NCBI GenBank assembly: GCA_017442825.1
Contig: JAFRYZ010000044.1
Span: 60,148-124,147 of the forward strand
Length of the DNA: 64,000 bases
Source: Prevotella sp.
Lineage (GTDB): Bacteria; Bacteroidota; Bacteroidia; Bacteroidales; Bacteroidaceae
Direction: 5' to 3'
In this document: positions 3,817 to 38,495 of the stretch, one piece after another
How positions within the stretch are numbered: position 1 is the first letter of the stretch
How the letters are laid out: each line of letters opens with the position of its first letter
Program-made: the position numbers and the translations under genes
The notes under the pieces: model-generated
What the model saw: only the letters and a program-made list of their open reading frames with translations
Database searches by the model: none
What the model was told of the DNA's origin: nothing

Positions 3817-4692
3817 ATGCAACACAGCCGATATCTTGTCGCCAGCGACAGAGATACCCAATGGGGACTCACTGTCAGCACTGTAGGATACGAAGAAATC
3901 CCCCCCGACAGCGACTATCCTACTAAAGGTCATGCCGAAGGCTACTATTTCCAGTACCATAAAGGGCGCATCCTGCGTGAGTTCCAACTGCAATATGTGG
4001 TCGAAGGCGAAGGCATCTTCAAATCTACCAATCAAGAAGAAATCCACCTTCGCAGCGGTGACATCTTCCTCCTCTTCCCCAACGAGTGGCACACCTATCG
4101 CCCCACCAAGAAAGACGGATGGAAATGCTACTGGATAGGGTTCAAAGGCAAGAACATGGACGACCGCATTGCCGCGGGCTTCCTGTCGCCTCGCAAGCCC
4201 ATCTACCACGTAGGCTACTCTGCCGAAATAGAAGAACTGATGAAAGAAGCCTGGGACACAGCCAACGAAGAGGCAGCCAGCGCCCAGCAGCAGTTGGCAG
4301 GCATCGTCAACCACCTGCTCGGCTCCATGTATGCGATGGAGCGCAACATCATCCTCAGCAAGAACCACGGCCATGTTGCTATGATTAACAAAGCGCGCCT
4401 GCGCATACGCGAAACCCTGGAGCAAGGCATCACCATACAGGATATTGCCGTAGAGATGGGCATCAGCTACAGCAACTTCCGCAAGCTGTTCAAGGAGCAC
4501 ACCGGCTCCTCACCCGCCCTCTACCAGCAAGACCTCAAGCTGCAACGCGCCAAGGAGCTGCTCTCCACCAGCAACAGCAGCATCAAGGAGATTGCCTACC
4601 GCCTGAACTTCGACTCTCCCGACTACTTCTCGTCCAAGTTCCGAAGCAAGACCGGCATGAAACCCTCAGAGTTCCGCAACCAGAACAGGTGA
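3817..4692 (+). CDS. AraC-family transcriptional regulator
   Basis: The 291-residue protein has an N-terminal cupin-like sensor half (about residues 20-140, with a histidine-containing FPNEWHTY motif typical of AraC-type sugar sensors). The C-terminal half is a double helix-turn-helix (about 195-290, including IQDIAVEMGIS and the second helix pair IKEIAYRLNFDSPDYFSSKFR). Such proteins usually respond to a small ligand and regulate nearby carbohydrate or transport genes. The gene lies downstream of btuG but has its own promoter candidate and is followed by a strong terminator. Its ligand and targets cannot be read from the sequence. Confidence 0.88.
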   Translation: MQHSRYLVASDRDTQWGLTVSTVGYEEIPPDSDYPTKGHAEGYYFQYHKGRILREFQLQYVVEGEGIFKSTNQEEIHLRSGDIFLLFPNEWHTYRPTKKDGWKCYWIGFKGKNMDDRIAAGFLSPRKPIYHVGYSAEIEELMKEAWDTANEEAASAQQQLAGIVNHLLGSMYAMERNIILSKNHGHVAMINKARLRIRETLEQGITIQDIAVEMGISYSNFRKLFKEHTGSSPALYQQDLKLQRAKELLSTSNSSIKEIAYRLNFDSPDYFSSKFRSKTGMKPSEFRNQNR

Positions 4693-31798: not shown

Positions 31799-32413
31799 TT
31801 ATTGCTGTGAAGGCACCTTCACCCCGTTCTTCTTCATTTGTTCCAAGCGGTGTTGCACTCTAGCTCTCGCTATCTTACGCATTTTCTCCTGTTCACTGTC
31901 ATTAGGGTCGATTTGTACCTGTACAGTTCCAGAGTAGCCGTTGTTGTCGGTGTAGATAGAAGTAACTGCCTGTGATTGCGCCTTAACTTTACCTGTTCCG
32001 CTGCAGACATGACACTGCCATTTGGTCACCTTGTTGCCATTGCACTGGTTGCATACGTATCTTCCTGCGCCCTCGCACTTCTGACACACCCTTGTGCCTG
32101 TACCTTTGCAGGTCTCACACTGCGGTGTTCCTTTACCGCCACACCATTGACACTCGCGCCAATTATCCTTGACTTGCACGCCACCCTTGCCGCGACAATG
32201 GGCACAAAACACTTGCCCTGACCCTTGACACATGTTACAGCGCACCTCTTTCTTGCCCAAGCAGAAATCGCACTCACGCCAACCTTCTCCTTTACAAAAC
32301 GCACAAGTACGCTCTTCCAATCCTGAACCGTTACAGTTTTTACACTCTGTCTGTGCCTTCGTGTACAGCGACCCTATCGCCATCGCCATACAGATAAACA
32401 GTATTCTTTTCAT
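31799..32413 (-). CDS. Secreted DnaJ-type Cys-rich (CxxCxGxG) protein A
   Basis: The 204-residue protein has a signal peptide (to about residue 20, ending TKAQ). It then has about ten CxxC knuckles, most as CxxCxGxG or close variants (CKNCNGSG, CNMCQGSG, CETCKGTG, CHVCSGTG). This resembles the zinc-binding central domain of DnaJ, but there is no J domain and no substrate-binding domain. The last 60 residues lack Cys and are charged (EQEKMRKIARARVQHRLEQMKK). Zinc or another thiophilic metal probably holds the fold in the periplasm or outside. It is the last gene of the 31.8-38.3 kb cluster. Function unknown. Confidence 0.8.
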   Translation of the reverse strand: MKRILFICMAMAIGSLYTKAQTECKNCNGSGLEERTCAFCKGEGWRECDFCLGKKEVRCNMCQGSGQVFCAHCRGKGGVQVKDNWRECQWCGGKGTPQCETCKGTGTRVCQKCEGAGRYVCNQCNGNKVTKWQCHVCSGTGKVKAQSQAVTSIYTDNNGYSGTVQVQIDPNDSEQEKMRKIARARVQHRLEQMKKNGVKVPSQQ

Positions 32414-32439
32414 AATAGTATAGTTTTAAAGGATTATAA

Positions 32440-32742
32440 TTATTGATGATAGTTTTTCCAAATGCGGTGAGCCTCTTCCTCTGTATCGTACCAGTCTCCA
32501 TAACGAATAAAGCCCCGTCCTATGATGGCATACCCCTTATCCCTATCTTTCAGGATATAGTAAGAACCCTGATTGTTGTAGGCTTTGATGTCCTCAAACG
32601 AGTTGATGTTGCCAATTTCCAACAGATTGCCTTTCCAATTGGAGAGATAGTAATTGTTACCATTCCTCACGATGATTGCGTCGTCATATTGCTCGATGTC
32701 ATGACCATCAGCTATCACTTCTCCATCTTCGTCTATAATCAA
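32440..32742 (-). CDS. C-terminal part of a frameshifted cluster protein
   Basis: This 100-residue frame lacks a signal peptide and starts within an open frame extending upstream to about 32820 (residues AQTWTEPKYEPKGLHPGGKDEDTS precede it, split here by position only). It reads as the natural continuation of the secreted protein encoded at 32745-33314, but in a different frame. The domain is rich in Asp, Tyr and Gly with YYLSNWKGN and YAIIGRGFI motifs, somewhat like WG or beta-propeller repeats. I interpret 32440-33314 as one gene of about 290 codons broken by a shift near 32815-32825, or two pieces of a programmed product. Confidence 0.6.
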   Translation of the reverse strand: MIIDEDGEVIADGHDIEQYDDAIIVRNGNNYYLSNWKGNLLEIGNINSFEDIKAYNNQGSYYILKDRDKGYAIIGRGFIRYGDWYDTEEEAHRIWKNYHQ

Positions 32743-32744
32743 AT

Positions 32745-33314
32745 TCAGCGAGGTATCCTCGTCTTTACCGCCGGGGTGTAGTCCTTTAGGCTCGTACTTG
32801 GGTTCTGTCCAGGTTTGGGCTTATATTTCGGACAGGTTGGCTTGTGAAACCACGGGTTGTTAGCAGAAATATGGGATGCTTCATCAACGCCTGATGCCTT
32901 AAAGGTCGCCTTGCAGATAGTGCATTCAAACGGAATCTCGGTTCGCTCAACAGACGAGGACGAAGTCGATATACTGGAAGTTGTTTGTTTAGGTTTCTTT
33001 TCTGCTTTATTTTGTGCCTTTTCCGCCTGACGGGCCTCACGCCCTTGTTTAGCGAGCAGTCGGATATTTTCCTCGTAAGTCTTAATAAGAAACTTATTTG
33101 ACTCCGGAGTTTTTGACTTCGCCCAATAATCACGTATTAACCTCTGTGTCTTACCTATGAGACAATCGGTATTATGTCCGTTGGTACGTCCACATTGCTC
33201 ACACATCACGCCATTTCCATATTTGTATTCTATCGAATTGAAATTAGGAATCTGTGCCCGAACCGATGCGGCAGTTGTAAATGCTATCGCTACAAATAAT
33301 GCAATTCTTTTCAT
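32745..33314 (-). CDS. Secreted cluster protein with two Cys-His motifs, frameshifted at its 3' end
   Basis: The 189-residue frame has a signal peptide (MKRIALFVAIAFTTAASVRAQ). A first cysteine motif (CEQCGRTNGHNTDC) is followed by a Lys/Gln/Ala-rich helix, a Ser-rich linker (about 110-122) and a second zinc-finger-like motif (CTICKATF then H...PTCPKY). The second motif has the same C-x2-C...H...CP layout as the protein at 34786-35676. The end beyond KPKPG appears out of frame with the real C-terminal domain at 32440-32742. The leader before the ATG is almost the same as those of two other cluster genes. Function unknown. Confidence 0.65.
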   Translation of the reverse strand: MKRIALFVAIAFTTAASVRAQIPNFNSIEYKYGNGVMCEQCGRTNGHNTDCLIGKTQRLIRDYWAKSKTPESNKFLIKTYEENIRLLAKQGREARQAEKAQNKAEKKPKQTTSSISTSSSSVERTEIPFECTICKATFKASGVDEASHISANNPWFHKPTCPKYKPKPGQNPSTSLKDYTPAVKTRIPR

Positions 33315-33333
33315 AATCGTATCGTTTTATAGG

Positions 33334-33411
33334 TTATTCTTTTGTAACTTTATTCTCGTTCGGCGAGTTGGGAATTTGCGGAACTTGAATGAGTCCATTG
33401 AAAAGCGGACA
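33334..33411 (-). pseudogene. 3'-end remnant of a paralog of the 34786-35676 gene
   Basis: Read on the minus strand, these 25 codons plus stop give CPLFNGLIQVPQIP and end in NKVTKE. The neighbouring gene at 34786-35676 ends CPRFNQIIQVPQVP then NKATKE. Both are followed by the same leader (TAACCTATAAAA) and then a small secreted gene. The remnant follows directly after the stop of the 33427-33948 gene and has no start, so it is what remains of a duplicated copy. Confidence 0.75.
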
Positions 33412-33426
33412 ACCAATAATTTAGAA

Positions 33427-33948
33427 TTACTTTTTCTTGCCTTTCATCAGCTGATATACCACCCATCCTAATCCTATTAAGGTTATCAGACTTAATGTGG
33501 CCATGCGCGTCTTATGATCGGCATAGAAGCGTAGGTAGAAGAAGGAAACATCAACGACATAGAGAATGGCGGATGTCACTATCGTGTAACCAGCGACTAT
33601 CAATACTTCGCGCCATGTAGGACGGTAGTCTCTGTTCTTCAGATATGTGGCGACCATATATACGATGAACAACAATGGTGTTATAGCACAGAAACAGAGT
33701 ATGTACATCCAGATTTTCCGTTGCTCCTCCCGCTGCTTAACCAAACTGTCCATCTCCTGGTTCATACGCTCGTATGCCTTATAGCTCTCCGAGTGATTCC
33801 CCAGCGAGTCGGTGTGCAACTGCCTGACGAGTTCCTGCTGGTAGCTTTCCATCGATGACGGCTGCTGTGCATACCCAAAAGTCACAAAGGCACCACCAGT
33901 CAGCAGCGCACAGATGAGAAAGACATAGAGGATTTTATGGCTTGACAT
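33427..33948 (-). CDS. Small membrane protein of the Cys-rich cluster
   Basis: The 173-residue product starts at the ATG at 33948, which overlaps the end of the upstream gene by 14 bp; a longer frame exists but lies inside that gene. It has an N-terminal hydrophobic segment resembling a signal or first membrane helix (ending near GYAQQ). A charged helical stretch follows (ERMNQEMDSLVKQREEQRK), then three more membrane helices (about 85-110, 118-143 and 150-170) and a basic tail GKKK. No family recognised. The overlap suggests translational coupling and a shared role with the secreted protein upstream. Confidence 0.65.
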   Translation of the reverse strand: MSSHKILYVFLICALLTGGAFVTFGYAQQPSSMESYQQELVRQLHTDSLGNHSESYKAYERMNQEMDSLVKQREEQRKIWMYILCFCAITPLLFIVYMVATYLKNRDYRPTWREVLIVAGYTIVTSAILYVVDVSFFYLRFYADHKTRMATLSLITLIGLGWVVYQLMKGKKK

Positions 33949-34348
33949 TATTCCACCAATTATGATAGCCAACGTACCACCCGTAGGGATTTTTTCCCGT
34001 GTACTGATGTTCCTTCTTGAATCTGCTGTCATAGATGATAAAGGTATGATATGGTGCTCCGCCCCATACATGGAAACCGTTCATATCAAAGCGTTTGGTT
34101 ACCGTATAAAGAACATTTCCGTTATATTTGATTTGCACGGTAATTTCTGACTGCGTAAGATCAGCAGCCATATCGCCGTTGTTGGTAAAATACCCACGGA
34201 CCCTACATTCACCGTCGGAAACTGTAACCTCGGTTGTTGTAAACTTGATGTCTGCGCCTGCATATACTTTCTGCGGCATCACCATCATGATACCGAAAAG
34301 ACACATGAGGACTGTCCGGACAATCCATTGCTTGTTGTTCTGTTTCAT
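33935..34348 (-). CDS. Small secreted protein of the Cys-rich cluster
   Basis: The 137-residue product has a signal peptide (to about residue 30, MPQKVYA). The mature domain is mostly beta-stranded, with EVTVSDGECRVRGYFTNNGD and a C-terminal aromatic stretch (GWYVGYHNWWNN). It may be an immunoglobulin-like fold, with only one Cys in the mature part. No family recognised. Its 3' end overlaps the start of the membrane protein gene downstream. It lacks the CxxCxGxG knuckles of its neighbours. Confidence 0.65.
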   Translation of the reverse strand: MKQNNKQWIVRTVLMCLFGIMMVMPQKVYAGADIKFTTTEVTVSDGECRVRGYFTNNGDMAADLTQSEITVQIKYNGNVLYTVTKRFDMNGFHVWGGAPYHTFIIYDSRFKKEHQYTGKNPYGWYVGYHNWWNNVKP

Positions 34349-34368
34349 CGTTTGAACTCTTTTGGTGA

Positions 34369-34767
34369 TTACTGGCAGTCAGGACAAGGGATTTTCTTCA
34401 GTCCGCCACAACGAGGACACACCTTGTCGCCATAGAAACAATACTTCGGAGCCTCAGGGCATTTCTCATAGCCCTTGCCGTCGCATTGATGACAGTCGAT
34501 GACACGACCTGTTCCCTTGCAGGTCCAACAACTTGCGTTATTATAATACTTGGAGCCATGGCAGACGGGACAGGTCTTAAACTCGCCATTACATCTGCGG
34601 CAAACGATATTACCCAGTCCCTTACAAGTAGGACAGAGATCTGCCTTACCGTTGCACTCCGGACAGACTATCACACCTGAGCCGTCGCATCTTCTGCAAT
34701 TCGACTGTGCCTGTGCTGCTACGACAGCCATCAGGACTACTGCTAATATTAAAATAAATCGTTTCAT
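34369..34767 (-). CDS. Secreted DnaJ-type Cys-rich (CxxCxGxG) protein B
   Basis: The 132-residue product has a signal peptide (to about residue 21, VAAQAQ). Nine or ten CxxC motifs (CRRCDGSG, CPTCKGLG, CWTCKGTG, CHQCDGKG, CPRCGG, CPDC) cover nearly the whole mature chain. It is a paralog in style of the proteins at 31799, 36511 and 36840, with no other domain. Expected to bind several zinc ions after export. Two ATG codons are adjacent (34770 and 34767). The second matches the position used in its paralogs relative to the shared leader. Confidence 0.8.
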   Translation of the reverse strand: MKRFILILAVVLMAVVAAQAQSNCRRCDGSGVIVCPECNGKADLCPTCKGLGNIVCRRCNGEFKTCPVCHGSKYYNNASCWTCKGTGRVIDCHQCDGKGYEKCPEAPKYCFYGDKVCPRCGGLKKIPCPDCQ

Positions 34768-34785
34768 CATCGTATTTTTTATAGG

Positions 34786-35676
34786 TTACTCTTTTGTAGC
34801 TTTATTTAATTCAGGCGTGGCAGGCACTTGCGGAACCTGAATGATTTGATTGAAACGCGGACAGTCTTTTTTACAGTGTTCATTGAAAAACAGACTTGCC
34901 GACTTGCCCACGAAAGTAGCACCACAGTGTGGACACGTGATGCGAATGTCGTGCATGGGCTGAGGTGCAGATACTGATTCCTGCTGTGGCCTTTGCGATG
35001 CCGGCAAACTGTCATTCGCTTCCGCATCTTGATAATACGGGCAGTTTTGCTTGTGGGCTTCGCCTGTCTTCAGGTTTACATCGCAATAGATGCAATATGC
35101 TTCTTCGACACTCGGATTCAGGCTTTCAATAGCCGTGATCAGCGCCTCTATTTCCTTTTTGGAACCGAAAGGCAGGATGAAGCCGGGATGACGGTTTTTA
35201 TCCTTGTCGACGATAGGTGACACACTAAGATAGACAGCATCATCACCCACGAACATCATCTGCGTATAAGCCTCCACATGGGCATCCTTCATATTGTGAT
35301 ACTCCGGTTCTGGTGGTGTACCTATATCAAACCATGCCGTCACGTTCTTGAAGTTTGTATCGAACAGGACTGCTGCATCCTCGATGCCTGTTACGGGAGC
35401 TTTCGTATCCCACCACAGTCCTGCTTTGTCAGCAAGAGAACGCAATTCCTTGACAAATGAGGGGATATGCTTACTCGATAAACGTATTCCAACGATTGGG
35501 ATATGCTTGTTAAGCGACTGGCCATAGATGAGACAGTCGAAAGACTTTCCCTTAACATTCTCTACCAACACACCATAATCCCTATCGGTTACCGACGAGT
35601 GCCACGAGCCGTACTTCTGCGCACTCGCACAGAGAGAACACACCAAGGCAATTGCCAATAATACTTGCTTCTTCAT
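34786..35676 (-). CDS. Secreted cluster protein with C-terminal zinc-finger-like motif
   Basis: The 296-residue product has a signal peptide (MKKQVLLAIALVCSLCASAQ). The central alpha/beta region has no recognised family (about 25-190). A first motif CIYCDVNL..HKQNCPYY and a second CPHCGATF..HCKKDCPRF motif follow, both of the C-x2-C...H...C type. The tail is QIIQVPQVP. The start at 35676 is used because the longer frame reads through the repeat region of the upstream gene in a second frame. The gene begins at the stop of the upstream heptad-repeat gene (2 bp apart). A remnant of a second copy lies at 33334-33411. Confidence 0.7.
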   Translation of the reverse strand: MKKQVLLAIALVCSLCASAQKYGSWHSSVTDRDYGVLVENVKGKSFDCLIYGQSLNKHIPIVGIRLSSKHIPSFVKELRSLADKAGLWWDTKAPVTGIEDAAVLFDTNFKNVTAWFDIGTPPEPEYHNMKDAHVEAYTQMMFVGDDAVYLSVSPIVDKDKNRHPGFILPFGSKKEIEALITAIESLNPSVEEAYCIYCDVNLKTGEAHKQNCPYYQDAEANDSLPASQRPQQESVSAPQPMHDIRITCPHCGATFVGKSASLFFNEHCKKDCPRFNQIIQVPQVPATPELNKATKE

Positions 35677-35677
35677 G

Positions 35678-36454
35678 TCATTTCTTGTCACACTTCTTTG
35701 CTTTGTCGCATGCTTTTGCTTTTTCACATGCCTTTGCCTTTTCGCATGCCTTTGCTTTTTCGCATGACTTTGCCTTTTCACATGCCTTTGCCTTTTCACA
35801 TGCCTTTGCCTTTTCGCATGACTTTTCGCACTTCACATACTCAACCTGAGCATTGTTCTGACCGCTAATCTCTGGCTTGCAGCCCTCAGCAAGGATGATT
35901 TTCTTCAACTCAGAGGCATTGCTGACGTTGAGTTTCTCCAGTTTCTTCTGTTTGTGCAGGTCGATAACCTCCAACGGAGTGGTACCCACACCCAATGCGG
36001 TAAGGTTGGGGAAAAACTTCAGGAAGTCATAGTTAGTAATAACATTGCTGCGACCACCTCTTTCTAGCGAGAGGAAAGTAGCCTTCCTGGCTTCACAGCA
36101 ATCCACGATGCCGTCGCCGTTGGTGTCGATATCCTTGAAGCACTGTGAGAAGATGTTGTTTTCCTCGATCTTGACAACCGTCACTTTCTCTTTCTTTTCA
36201 GCTTTGCAACACTCTTTCTTTGCCTTGCAACACTCCTTCTGTGCCTTGCAACACTCCTTTTCAGCCTTGCAGCACTCCTTCTGTGCTTTGCAACATTCCT
36301 TCTCTGCCTTGCAACATTCCTTCTCTGCCTTGCAGCATTCCTTCTCTGCCTTGCAGCATTCCTTCTGAACCTTGCAACATTCTTTCTGTTCTTGTGCCTG
36401 TGCAGCACCCATAGCCACGAAGGCTATAGCTAATGATATAATCAGTCGTTTCAT
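35678..36454 (-). CDS. Secreted protein with KECCKAE heptads, EF-hand, leucine-rich segment and CEKAKA repeats
   Basis: The 258-residue product has a signal peptide (to about residue 21). It then has about nine heptads of type (Q/E)KECCKA (about residues 22-87) with nearly 20 cysteines. An EF-hand-like loop DTNGDGIVD is followed by CCEA and a leucine-rich segment (FLSLERGG to KIILAEGC). The last 50 residues are about eight hexads of type (A/S)CEKAK, each with one Cys. The central domain is a close relative of the N-terminal half of the protein at 37299-38318, where the EF-hand is followed by AAEA instead of CCEA. Calcium binding plus dense metal or disulfide chemistry is likely. I know of no described family with this architecture. 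Confidence 0.75.
   Translation of the reverse strand: MKRLIISLAIAFVAMGAAQAQEQKECCKVQKECCKAEKECCKAEKECCKAEKECCKAQKECCKAEKECCKAQKECCKAKKECCKAEKKEKVTVVKIEENNIFSQCFKDIDTNGDGIVDCCEARKATFLSLERGGRSNVITNYDFLKFFPNLTALGVGTTPLEVIDLHKQKKLEKLNVSNASELKKIILAEGCKPEISGQNNAQVEYVKCEKSCEKAKACEKAKACEKAKSCEKAKACEKAKACEKAKACDKAKKCDKK
35684..35832. repeat. 18-bp tandem repeat encoding CEKAKA
   Basis: About eight 18-bp units (GCATGCCTTTGCTTTTTC type, plus strand) near the 3' end of the heptad-repeat gene. Confidence 0.85.
36205..36391. repeat. 21-bp tandem repeat encoding KECCKAE
   Basis: About nine 21-bp units, seven residues each, with third-position variation such as AGCC/TGCC and Gln/Glu exchanges. Confidence 0.85.
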
Positions 36455-36510
36455 ATACGTTGAGTTTTAGTTTGATGTTTAAAGTATCGCCTGAGGCGAG
36501 GATTGATGTA

Positions 36511-36813
36511 TTAGATAGAGCCCCGTCCGAAGCAGCGTGTACAGAGCACGGCACCTTTTCCGTTACATGTACGACACTCGTTGTAACCTGTACCTTCGCA
36601 GACGCCGCAAGTATAGGTACTACCTTTATACTCCACCTGACCTGAACCGCCACACTTGATACACTTGAAGTAAGGGCGACCGCCACAAGTCGGGCATGTC
36701 AGACTACCCCTTCCGCCACAACTGTCACAGGTACGGTCACCCATTACGGTGAAACTCATCGCTATCATTGCTATTGCTACAACAGCAAATGATTTAAATA
36801 ATGACTTTTTCAT
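36511..36813 (-). CDS. Secreted DnaJ-type Cys-rich (CxxCxGxG) protein C
   Basis: The 100-residue product starts at MKKSLFKSF, has a signal peptide of about 25 residues and then six CxxCxGxG-type knuckles (CDSCGGRG, CPTCGGRP, CIKCGGSG, CGVCEGTG, CRTCNGKG, CTRCFGRG). It is the shortest of the four paralogs. An ATG two codons earlier (36819) is possible. The leader TATGATTATGAAA is like those of the other cluster genes. Probably a metal-stabilised exported protein; function unknown. Confidence 0.78.
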   Translation of the reverse strand: MKKSLFKSFAVVAIAMIAMSFTVMGDRTCDSCGGRGSLTCPTCGGRPYFKCIKCGGSGQVEYKGSTYTCGVCEGTGYNECRTCNGKGAVLCTRCFGRGSI

Positions 36814-36839
36814 AATCATATCTTTTTTGTAGTTATAAA

Positions 36840-37259
36840 TTATATCCTGCCAGCAGCTATACACTCCGGACAACGCCATTCTTTAATTCCAGAGCCGCCA
36901 CAGTTGTAGCATGATCCAGCTCCACTGCCATTACATCGGCTACATCTTAGATATCCGGAATTTTCCTTGCATGCCTCGCAGCGGAAGGTTTTCTGTCCGC
37001 CACAGTTTCCACATGTCTCATCGCCATTCATACCAGTACCATCGCAAGTATGACAAGTCAGCTCGCCAGAGCCGCTGCAATGGTAACAGCTTACCATACC
37101 ACTGCCCTGACAGTTATCACAACGTCCACCACTATTCCCATGACAAGAAAGGCAGGTTTCACGAATAATGCCAGTATTACCACAACGACTACAACTTTGA
37201 GCCTGAATAGCTAATGTACATGTCAAAGCTATTACTAATGTTAAAATGATTCGCTTCAT
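36840..37259 (-). CDS. Secreted DnaJ-type Cys-rich (CxxCxGxG) protein D
   Basis: The 139-residue product has a signal peptide (MKRIILTLVIALTCTLAIQAQ). About ten cysteine knuckles follow (CSRCGNTG, CDNCQGSG, CYHCSGSG, CHTCDGTG, CSRCNGSG, CYNCGGSG, CPEC), filling the mature chain. It has the same layout as the proteins at 31799 and 34369, and the leader is shared with them. It lies 39 bp downstream of the EF-hand/LRR gene and 26 bp upstream of protein C, consistent with one transcript. Confidence 0.8.
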   Translation of the reverse strand: MKRIILTLVIALTCTLAIQAQSCSRCGNTGIIRETCLSCHGNSGGRCDNCQGSGMVSCYHCSGSGELTCHTCDGTGMNGDETCGNCGGQKTFRCEACKENSGYLRCSRCNGSGAGSCYNCGGSGIKEWRCPECIAAGRI

Positions 37260-37298
37260 AACAATATAGTTTTTATGGTTAATATTTAATGTCTGTTG

Positions 37299-38318
37299 TT
37301 ATTTATACACCACCTTCGCCTGCTCACCTTTATAAGCAACCGGATACTTGATGGTAGGTTTGCAGCCCTTAGCCAGGATGATGGTCTTCAGCATGCGGCA
37401 GTCGCTGACGTCGAGTTCCTTCAGCTTCTTCAGGCAACTCAAATCCAGCGTCTCTGCGTATGTATAGCCGGCATGGAAGTATTCCAGGTTGGGGAAATAC
37501 TTCAGGTCTTCATACGACTTGATGTTGCGGATGAAACTTTTGAAGTTCATCAGGCTCAGCTTCGTTACTGCCTTCGCTTCGTCAATGGAAATCTCTCCGT
37601 TTTGGTCTGCATCTATTTTCCTGTTGCGCAGGCAGAACTCCTTGATACCTTCATCAGCAAACGGAACAGCGATCAGCACCGGCTGGCTCACCGTGAAGTA
37701 CTTGTTTCTCAATTCCTCCAGCTCATACTGGCAGGGAACTTCCAGCTTGCCGTTATGCCAGATGCCATACTTGCCATACTCCTTACTGACGATATAGCAG
37801 ACATCGCCGTCCTGCTCCACCTTCTCGCAGTAGCTGTACTCTTCCAACAGCTTGCGGACGGTTTCGTCCTCCACATAATATTCTATGTCTATGCGTGCCT
37901 TACCCTCCGGATTGATAATCTCCGGCTGGCAGCCCTGTGCAAGGATAATCTTCTGCAGGAATGTCGCATTCGTGAGGTTCAGCTTCTCCAACTTCGTCAG
38001 ACGATGCAGGTCTATAACCTCAGCAGTGGTGGTACCCACCGAGAAAGCCTTGAGGTTGGGGAAGTGTTTCAGGAAGTCATAGTTGTTGATGATATTGCTG
38101 CGTCCACCCCTGTCCAACACGAGTATCGTTGCAGCCTTTGCCTCAGCAGCATCAACGATGCCGTCGCCATTGGTGTCGATGTCCTTGAAACAATTGGAGA
38201 AGATGCTAAACTCCTTCATTGAGATTATGCAGTCTGAATCGGGTTCCTTGATGTTCTGAGCCATCATGGATAGGGTGCCTGTCAGAATGACTGTCAATAA
38301 TAATGCTACTCGTTTCAT
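37299..38318 (-). CDS. Secreted EF-hand/leucine-rich-repeat protein, two-module
   Basis: The 339-residue product has a signal peptide (to about residue 20, SMMAQ). Two similar modules each begin with an EF-hand-like loop (DTNGDGIVD near residue 48, DADQNGEIS near 235) followed by KLSL/ILVLDR-type leucine-rich strands. The modules end in AQGCQPEI or AKGCKPTI. Between them (about 140-225) is a WG-like stretch (KYGIWHNGKLEVPCQYELEELRNKYF). Calcium-dependent folding outside the cell is plausible. It is the first gene of the cluster, and its first module is the core of the heptad-repeat protein at 35678. No function is known to me. Confidence 0.75.
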   Translation of the reverse strand: MKRVALLLTVILTGTLSMMAQNIKEPDSDCIISMKEFSIFSNCFKDIDTNGDGIVDAAEAKAATILVLDRGGRSNIINNYDFLKHFPNLKAFSVGTTTAEVIDLHRLTKLEKLNLTNATFLQKIILAQGCQPEIINPEGKARIDIEYYVEDETVRKLLEEYSYCEKVEQDGDVCYIVSKEYGKYGIWHNGKLEVPCQYELEELRNKYFTVSQPVLIAVPFADEGIKEFCLRNRKIDADQNGEISIDEAKAVTKLSLMNFKSFIRNIKSYEDLKYFPNLEYFHAGYTYAETLDLSCLKKLKELDVSDCRMLKTIILAKGCKPTIKYPVAYKGEQAKVVYK

Positions 38319-38403: not shown

Positions 38404-38411
38404 CAAAGATA
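38404..38411 (-). promoter_or_regulatory. -7 promoter element (TATCTTTG) of the Cys-rich cluster
   Basis: TAnnTTTG on the minus strand, 86 bp before the first ATG (38318) and divergent from the protease promoter. It is the only strong promoter candidate I found ahead of the cluster. Confidence 0.55.
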
Positions 38412-38495
38412 ATAGATGTTTCCCCTATAACAAAGGGAATATCCCTATTTCTTTGCAGGAATCCCCTACAATATGCAAGAAAAACACGGTTTTTG

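Follow-up and report, generated by a model that had tools for sequence, protein, structure and literature searches.

A recurrent island of predicted exported, cysteine-rich proteins in Prevotella and an operator-like box shared by half of the upstream regions examined

Introduction

What purpose would a row of small, cysteine-rich and apparently exported proteins serve in Prevotella? The question is raised by an island of genes at positions 31799-38318, minus strand, of a stretch of DNA from Prevotella sp. (GCA_017442825.1, contig JAFRYZ010000044.1, positions 60,148-124,147 of the forward strand), 64,000 nucleotides long and referred to here as the window. The island comprises nine intact genes, a truncated gene, I, and the broken-off end of I, and each of its ten genes starts with what was judged by eye to be a hydrophobic leader. 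An original prediction had described a minus-strand cluster of leader-bearing proteins separated by short gaps, which is what is read in the sequence, and had proposed that the genes form one jointly transcribed, metal-dependent extracytoplasmic system. To our knowledge, envelope quality control in Prevotella, a dominant genus of the gut and rumen, is poorly understood.

The families of the island recur together at several chromosomal sites and are co-directional in every mapped locus that holds more than one of them. Half of the island upstream regions examined share an operator-like box, and the same layout precedes exported-looking genes, mostly lipoproteins, genus-wide. As a whole, the earlier interpretation of the island is partly supported. 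We tentatively favor a role in which the proteins would bind other proteins in the envelope, and the competing explanations are weighed below where the evidence bears on them.

Recurrence of the island

Gene K (31799..32413, minus strand), which encodes a protein of cysteine knuckles, is the persistent member of the island. It was matched in 47 of 398 genus genomes at E <=0.001. Thirteen of these matches are strong (E <1e-40), including that of the window's genome, and the remaining 34 are distant (E >1e-40), made up of relatives of the B or C type, further knuckle proteins and what are probably DnaJ proteins. With strong matches in just 13 genomes, the island is dispensable. Seventeen K-bearing genomes were examined, and 14 loci, 4 of them new, came from scanning named genome contigs; 11 of the 14 records in that scan carry a ruminant gut origin or the code RUG, which we take to mean rumen. 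Another island family lies beside K in 16 of the 17 genomes, and only G128 has K alone.

The island sits between M24 and C1 peptidase genes in 11 of the 17 K-bearing genomes (eight with both flanks on one contig, two split over two contigs and one with a single flank), and G027 has an island without K at the same site. Other sites are occupied in RUG131 (locus L093), in a red-deer genome (L095), on contig L099, and in G267 and G128, while in G092 only one flank is present, and this is not the M24 gene. Since the island set also occurs away from the C1 peptidase, this enzyme is probably not a partner. Altogether 29 loci were mapped. At least two island families are present in 24 of them, which come from 21 genomes (G357, G385 and G267 giving two each) and hold 123 pieces, a piece not always being a whole gene; none of the 24 has mixed strands. 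The genes do cluster elsewhere, the opposite of what the original prediction had named as fatal to its idea of a single system. That prediction had also called for a search for the same arrangement in other genomes; clustering and co-direction were found again, and a fixed arrangement was not, as the order and content of island genes vary between loci.

Knuckle proteins and cysteine chemistry

Four proteins, K, F (34369..34770), C (36511..36813) and B (36840..37259), all encoded on the minus strand, consist almost solely of CxxCxGxG knuckles, just as had been described from the first look at the sequence. K and B have 10 CxxC motifs each, F has 9 and C has 6. After residue 20 their cysteine content is 11-18%, a range that also includes the protein of gene D, compared with a mean of 1.5% in 40 other open reading frames (ORFs) of at least 150 amino acids selected by script in the window. 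The start of C is more likely at 36813 than at 36879, judging from the position of the leader.

The zinc-binding domain of DnaJ (type A Hsp40), PF00684, scored 36.6 and 40.3 bits in K and F, in that order, against a cut-off of 32.7, with C and B below it. The cysteine-rich domain of BSD2, PF25436, likewise exceeded its cut-off of 27 in K (30.3) and F (28.7). The best match of a knuckle protein among solved structures was DnaJ 1exk (E 0.0016). No J-domain family is among the profile matches of ten proteins of the cluster or of A, no DnaJ C-terminal substrate-binding domain is listed for island proteins, and the NCBIfam DnaJ models match the knuckle part only. The DnaJ zinc domain has four CxxC motifs, with two CxxC pairs for each zinc ion. 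The island proteins share its repeats but differ in having six to ten CxxC, in being predicted to be exported and in lacking any listed J or C-terminal domain.

BSD2, PSA2 and ZnJ6 of plastids are also DnaJ-like knuckle proteins and are not known to carry a J domain. From these the island proteins differ in being bacterial and predicted to be exported, in having more knuckles, and in their EF-hand/leucine-rich repeat (LRR), Sel1 and C2HC partners. A family of such proteins in plastids is the subject of one report (PMC4806229), and another describes ZnJ6 as a DnaJ-like thylakoid protein with four such motifs, not 9 or 10 as in K, B and F or 6 as in C, that binds zinc and has holding activity (PMC7865324), a precedent for our best reading. 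Among open-licence papers, searched by title and the start of the abstract, there was no description of the gene set studied here. To the extent of the literature searched, J-less knuckle proteins themselves are already known, and the novelty lies in the multi-gene, exported set with such partners, in the operator and in the exchange among species.

The alignments drew on sequences chosen for variety, namely 25 of the 33 relatives for K, 43 of the 120 listed for A (136 found) and 30 of 44 for E. Across 26 aligned sequences, 19 of the 20 cysteines in the knuckles of K do not vary at all and the twentieth hardly does. VKOR was found in none of 14 incomplete genomes with island genes, and DsbB exceeded its cut-off in none of them, one weak match below it occurring in G357; the controls matched in 3 and in 6 out of 14 known genomes. 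With neither oxidase over its cut-off, the knuckle thiols are likely to stay reduced and thus to hold metal. The metal dependence proposed originally we only infer, from the conserved cysteines of K, the canonical loops of the EF-hands described below, and the lack of DsbB and VKOR above cut-off.

Knuckles were also seen in other settings. Proteins at L065 and L066 have a zinc-ribbon-like motif at the N terminus, knuckles at the C terminus and a hydrophobic stretch, and the same kind of gene lies ahead of them in both genomes. At L067 and L068, single proteins join Sel1 repeats (over the cut-off in both), WG-type repeats (over the cut-off in L067) and knuckles, and look as if island modules had been fused elsewhere.

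Promoter and palindromic box

TTTG / TAnnTTTG is the promoter type of Bacteroidetes. On the minus strand before gene A (37299..38318) there is a -7 element, TATCTTTG, at 38404..38411 with TTTG 19 bases upstream (38434-38431), giving TTTG-N19-TATCTTTG. One further TAnnTTTG occurs inside the island, without a TTTG. Given the one such promoter before A, joint transcription of the island is plausible. Three TAGGG repeats on the same strand (38414..38468, with starts at 38468, 38447 and 38427) lie ahead of the -7 element at distances of 57, 36 and 16 bases. With 4 mismatches to the box TAGGGAWWTYCCTA described next, the copy at 57 is degenerate; those at 36, which reads TAGGGATATTCCCT, and at 16 are better.

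Alignment of 18 island upstream regions, which we chose from the 29 mapped loci, revealed the palindrome TAGGGATTTCCCTA and its variants; the red-deer region in this set precedes K, though a gene of another family, N, comes first there. With at most two mismatches, TAGGGAWWTYCCTA stands 57-59 bases before TAnnTTTG in 9 of the 18. Shuffled controls, which preserve base composition alone, gave one upstream region in 5400 with at most three mismatches. A search of the genus with TAGGGAWWTYCCTA-N38..52-TAnnTTTG, which allows spacings of 52-66, matched in 109 of 249 genomes (loci L126-L198 among the matches), and the reversed pattern in none. The spacing is 57, 58 or 59 in 135 of the 137 matches. 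None of three spellings of the box that were tried occurred in the open-licence papers searched.

Seventy of the 137 promoters were read, all with a spacing of 57-59, 30 of them fetched by a tool and 40 chosen by us, largely down the table. A simple leader rule flagged 66 of the 70 downstream genes as exported, 49 of these as lipoproteins, and two more encode glycine-zipper proteins whose start was probably called too early; 26 of the 70 fit a glycine-zipper expression. In the window's own genome the box also appears at this spacing before a glycine-zipper lipoprotein (G000:C55) and a lipoprotein gene pair (C50) and, with one changed base, before the gene of an exported repeat protein flanked by ribD- and prmC-like genes (C11), the gene names here being those that we presume from the sequences. 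The protein on C11 (L157, 4023-4433) is made of near-perfect RGSNGQSIGR repeats. In G289 an I-type gene and a divergent gene of the sigma-70 family, in which Sigma70_r2 and r4 exceed their cut-offs, have a box-like palindrome between them (L108, 1530); the spacing towards the sigma gene is 44, and a link to the regulator is possible.

Together with the clustering elsewhere, the presence of the box in half of the upstream regions lends support to the proposal of a joint extracytoplasmic system. We read the box as a probable genus-specific operator of an envelope regulon, and the kind of targets suggests that the regulon may respond to stress. In the Rcs-type envelope stress regulon, too, the genes of envelope lipoproteins, some of them glycine-zipper proteins, are preceded by an operator that is palindromic and has GGA/TCC half-sites; the island box differs in its promoter type.

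The box also bears on whether the CxxC pairs might instead serve thiol-redox chemistry, as envelope disulfide isomerases or reductants rather than zinc sites. PDI-like proteins use CxxC as their redox motif, and in four genomes the box adjoins a pair of genes that we take, from their sequences, to be glutathione-peroxidase-like and thioredoxin-reductase-like. The report on ZnJ6 also describes an oxidising activity (PMC7865324). In those four loci, however, the spacing is 59 towards each divergent lipoprotein gene against 64, 71, 53 and 53 towards the peroxidase side, so that the peroxidase and reductase genes were rejected as targets of the box. As a DsbB- or VKOR-type oxidase was not found over the cut-off in any of the 14 genomes either, we regard a redox role as improbable.

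Other genes of the island

The features in this section are all on the minus strand. The proteins of A and D (35678..36454) share an EF-hand/leucine-rich module, as originally noted, with 57% identity over 141 residues. In A, a leader is followed by one such module, a middle piece and a second module. In D, a leader and CCKAEKE-type repeats precede the module and CEKAKA-type repeats follow it. The EF-hand loops are canonical, and the EF-hand family PF00036 scored 30.2 in the first module of A, against a cut-off of 25.4, and 14.5, below it, in D. Residues 213-339 of A bear some likeness to the cap and LRR of internalins; A differs in having a short LRR only and a canonical EF-hand as the cap loop, and a surface-anchor motif was not noticed. 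Lanmodulin was rejected as an identity for A, the NCBIfam equivalog scoring 21.3 against a cut-off of 135. The tandem Cys-Lys repeats of D have units of 21 and 18 bases (35696-35826 and 36194-36387), and the protein has 258 residues in the window compared with 183 in G246, 157 in G027 and 159 in G092, mainly owing to shorter Cys-Lys repeats there.

The motif C-x2-C...H...CP had been reported as common to E (34786..35676) and I, and is readily found in both. E has a leader, a domain resembling the PUR-alpha fold and two C2HC motifs, and its start is more likely at 35676 than at 35799, again from the position of the leader. No solved structure was matched by its sequence. The predicted structure resembles the PUR-alpha/whirly fold at 10% identity, and, as the likeness is weak and the protein is predicted to be exported, nucleic-acid binding is unlikely. 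In I (5' part, 32745..33314) a leader and C2HC motifs remain, the gene being shortened by an internal deletion. The intact I of G405 (L075) is a single gene of 495 residues. Compared with it, 532 bases are missing in the window, and the remaining downstream part (32440..32769) is out of frame and encodes a sequence 97% identical to residues 387-495. A small leaderless ORF at 32440-32742, which had been listed as a gene of its own, was therefore rejected as such and is the 3' end of I.

Two small genes complete the set. G (33935..34348) encodes a small predicted exported protein for which no family was found, and H (33427..33948), which overlaps it by 14 bases, has a leader and hydrophobic stretches resembling membrane helices, with no family over the cut-off. 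Directly after H, 75 bases (33337..33411) remain of the 3' end of an E gene, with 64% identity to E, and equivalents of this relic follow H in G246 and G405 as well. Additional families of the set are N, a Sel1-repeat protein absent from the window (PF08238 80.9 against a cut-off of 30.7 in G356), and H2 and M, small proteins with one hydrophobic stretch each. A small island of B, a piece of A, H, H2 and M lies between other genes in G414 (L053), and small islands were also found within the ribD-prmC-like interval in G335 and G252.

Two further assignments were considered. For A we had presumed a WG label; the WG repeat PF14903 is not listed for A, nor for I, whether as its 3' end in the window or as the intact gene of G405, and reached 24.0 against a cut-off of 25.6 in the I-type protein of G289. 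Type IX secretion cargo found no support, as no C-terminal sorting domain among the NCBIfam models, which presumably include one of this kind, matched any of ten proteins at E <=1.

The main rival of a role in envelope proteostasis is metal buffering. On this account the knuckle, C2HC and Cys-Lys proteins would soak up zinc or toxic soft metals in the periplasm, the EF-hands would take up calcium, and there would be no client proteins. The cysteine content of B, C, D, F and K, the tandem repeats of D and the conserved cysteines of K are what such a buffer would be expected to have, but LRR-, Sel1- and PUR-like binding folds with little capacity for metal stand alongside them. No gene for a metal transporter or regulator was noticed among the ORFs beside the islands, though none was searched for, and the other targets of the box that were read look like lipoproteins or exported proteins rather than metal genes. 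We consider a pure buffer unlikely, while ranking it ahead of the other rivals.

Exchange between species and selection

Between the window and G246, synonymous divergence (dS) is 0.04-0.34 in eight pairs of island genes (D and I were left out), against 1.28 for the flanking M24 gene, 1.16 for the C1 peptidase gene and 1.14 for RecJ. The low values within the island beside high values in its flanks point to exchange. Between the window and G405, DNA identity is 96.5% over 33247-34348 and 74.5% in the flanking M24 gene. It is likely that island genes have been swapped between some species. The ratio of nonsynonymous to synonymous divergence (dN/dS) is below 0.6 in all 19 computable island pairs and below 0.25 in 15 of them, which argues that the genes are maintained, and the 19 pairs do not point to diversifying selection when whole genes are considered. 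The higher value for K against G246 includes an exchanged leader. On L099, a 7.2 kb contig attributed to Paludibacteraceae through a nearly identical named protein (P0030), F (3903-4301) is 92% identical to that of the window and the adjacent K 59%, a mismatch that reflects either the transfer of a single gene or a binning error.

Exchange of this kind could suit an island engaged in conflict, its products being polymorphic surface receptors, inhibitors or immunity proteins directed against neighbors or phage. Such a role would explain one frequent site with changing content and exchange with some relatives, and the gene relics, the internalin-like LRR fold and the Sel1 protein fit it as well. 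The dN/dS values speak against it, PADLOC gave just three weak partial matches in ten proteins, and no relative of K was confirmed in viral contigs, so that neither an anti-phage defence system nor a phage origin finds support. Among the neighbors of the islands no toxin gene was noticed, though none was searched for. We consider conflict quite unlikely.

Alternatively, the site may be a hotspot of duplication at which paralogous secreted genes pile up and decay where this is tolerated, without a joint role. The many paralogues, the relic of E, the truncated I and the repeat arrays of D are the expected marks of such a process. It does not sit well with the same families occurring together at other sites (L093 and L095) and on L099, attributed to another family, or with the strict co-direction, the shared box and the purifying selection, and we give it little credence.

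Proposed function

Having considered these rivals, we return to the reading that we prefer, though tentatively and short of an even balance: the island may encode an exported, J-domain-free, zinc-stabilized, protein-binding (holdase-like) envelope set, which would probably be switched on together with envelope lipoproteins. The leaders would direct export via Sec into the periplasm. There, given a reduced habitat and no DsbB or VKOR, CxxC pairs would stay reduced and bind zinc. Knuckle rods and EF-hand/LRR, Sel1 and PUR-like domains would then, with no Hsp70 to assist them, hold on to envelope proteins that are damaged or misfolding, and the range of clients would be tuned as members are exchanged. 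The step from anatomy to function is an interpretive one, drawn from a set of predicted exported binding modules accompanied by small membrane proteins. The broader claim, of a system of proteostasis in the periplasm that does without both Hsp70 and J domains, with cassettes interchangeable between species and a genus-specific operator, we put forward with more doubt.

Several observations weigh against these proposals. Metal binding, export, the binding of clients and expression stand as predictions, the model of E is of low confidence (mean pLDDT 58.8), and the knuckle proteins may serve metal storage rather than the binding of clients. Most genus genomes are without K (13 strong matches in 398, many of the genomes being incomplete), and gene content is too variable for a fixed complex to be likely. 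The search for oxidants was confined to DsbB and VKOR, in 14 genomes of which 7 reach a completeness of 90% or more. With regard to exchange, dS of A, B, C and K against G356 is 1.3-2.7, so that exchange is seen against some relatives only, and D, at 83% DNA identity to that of G246, is more diverged than its neighbors. With regard to the operator, the box at up to two mismatches is missing or degenerate in 9 of the 18 upstream regions, the window's own included, and the nine positives are not all independent, those of G372 and G357 being near-identical. Two of the 137 matches have spacings of 54 and 64. Outside the genus, the pattern was matched in 2 of 148 other genomes of the order (one in the same family) against one reversed hit, which amounts to background, and the regulon is named for the envelope solely because its targets look exported.

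If the proposal of an envelope proteostasis set is true, strict anaerobes would have reduced zinc-based folds doing the work of chaperones beyond the cytoplasm. A concrete handle on this biology is given by the box and the genes that follow it, in the form of one palindrome, a fixed spacing and a list of genes for predicted exported proteins. The island suggests that strict anaerobes may use reduced zinc folds extracytoplasmically, in place of the disulfides of textbook examples, and that proteins of this kind may pass between species as cassettes.

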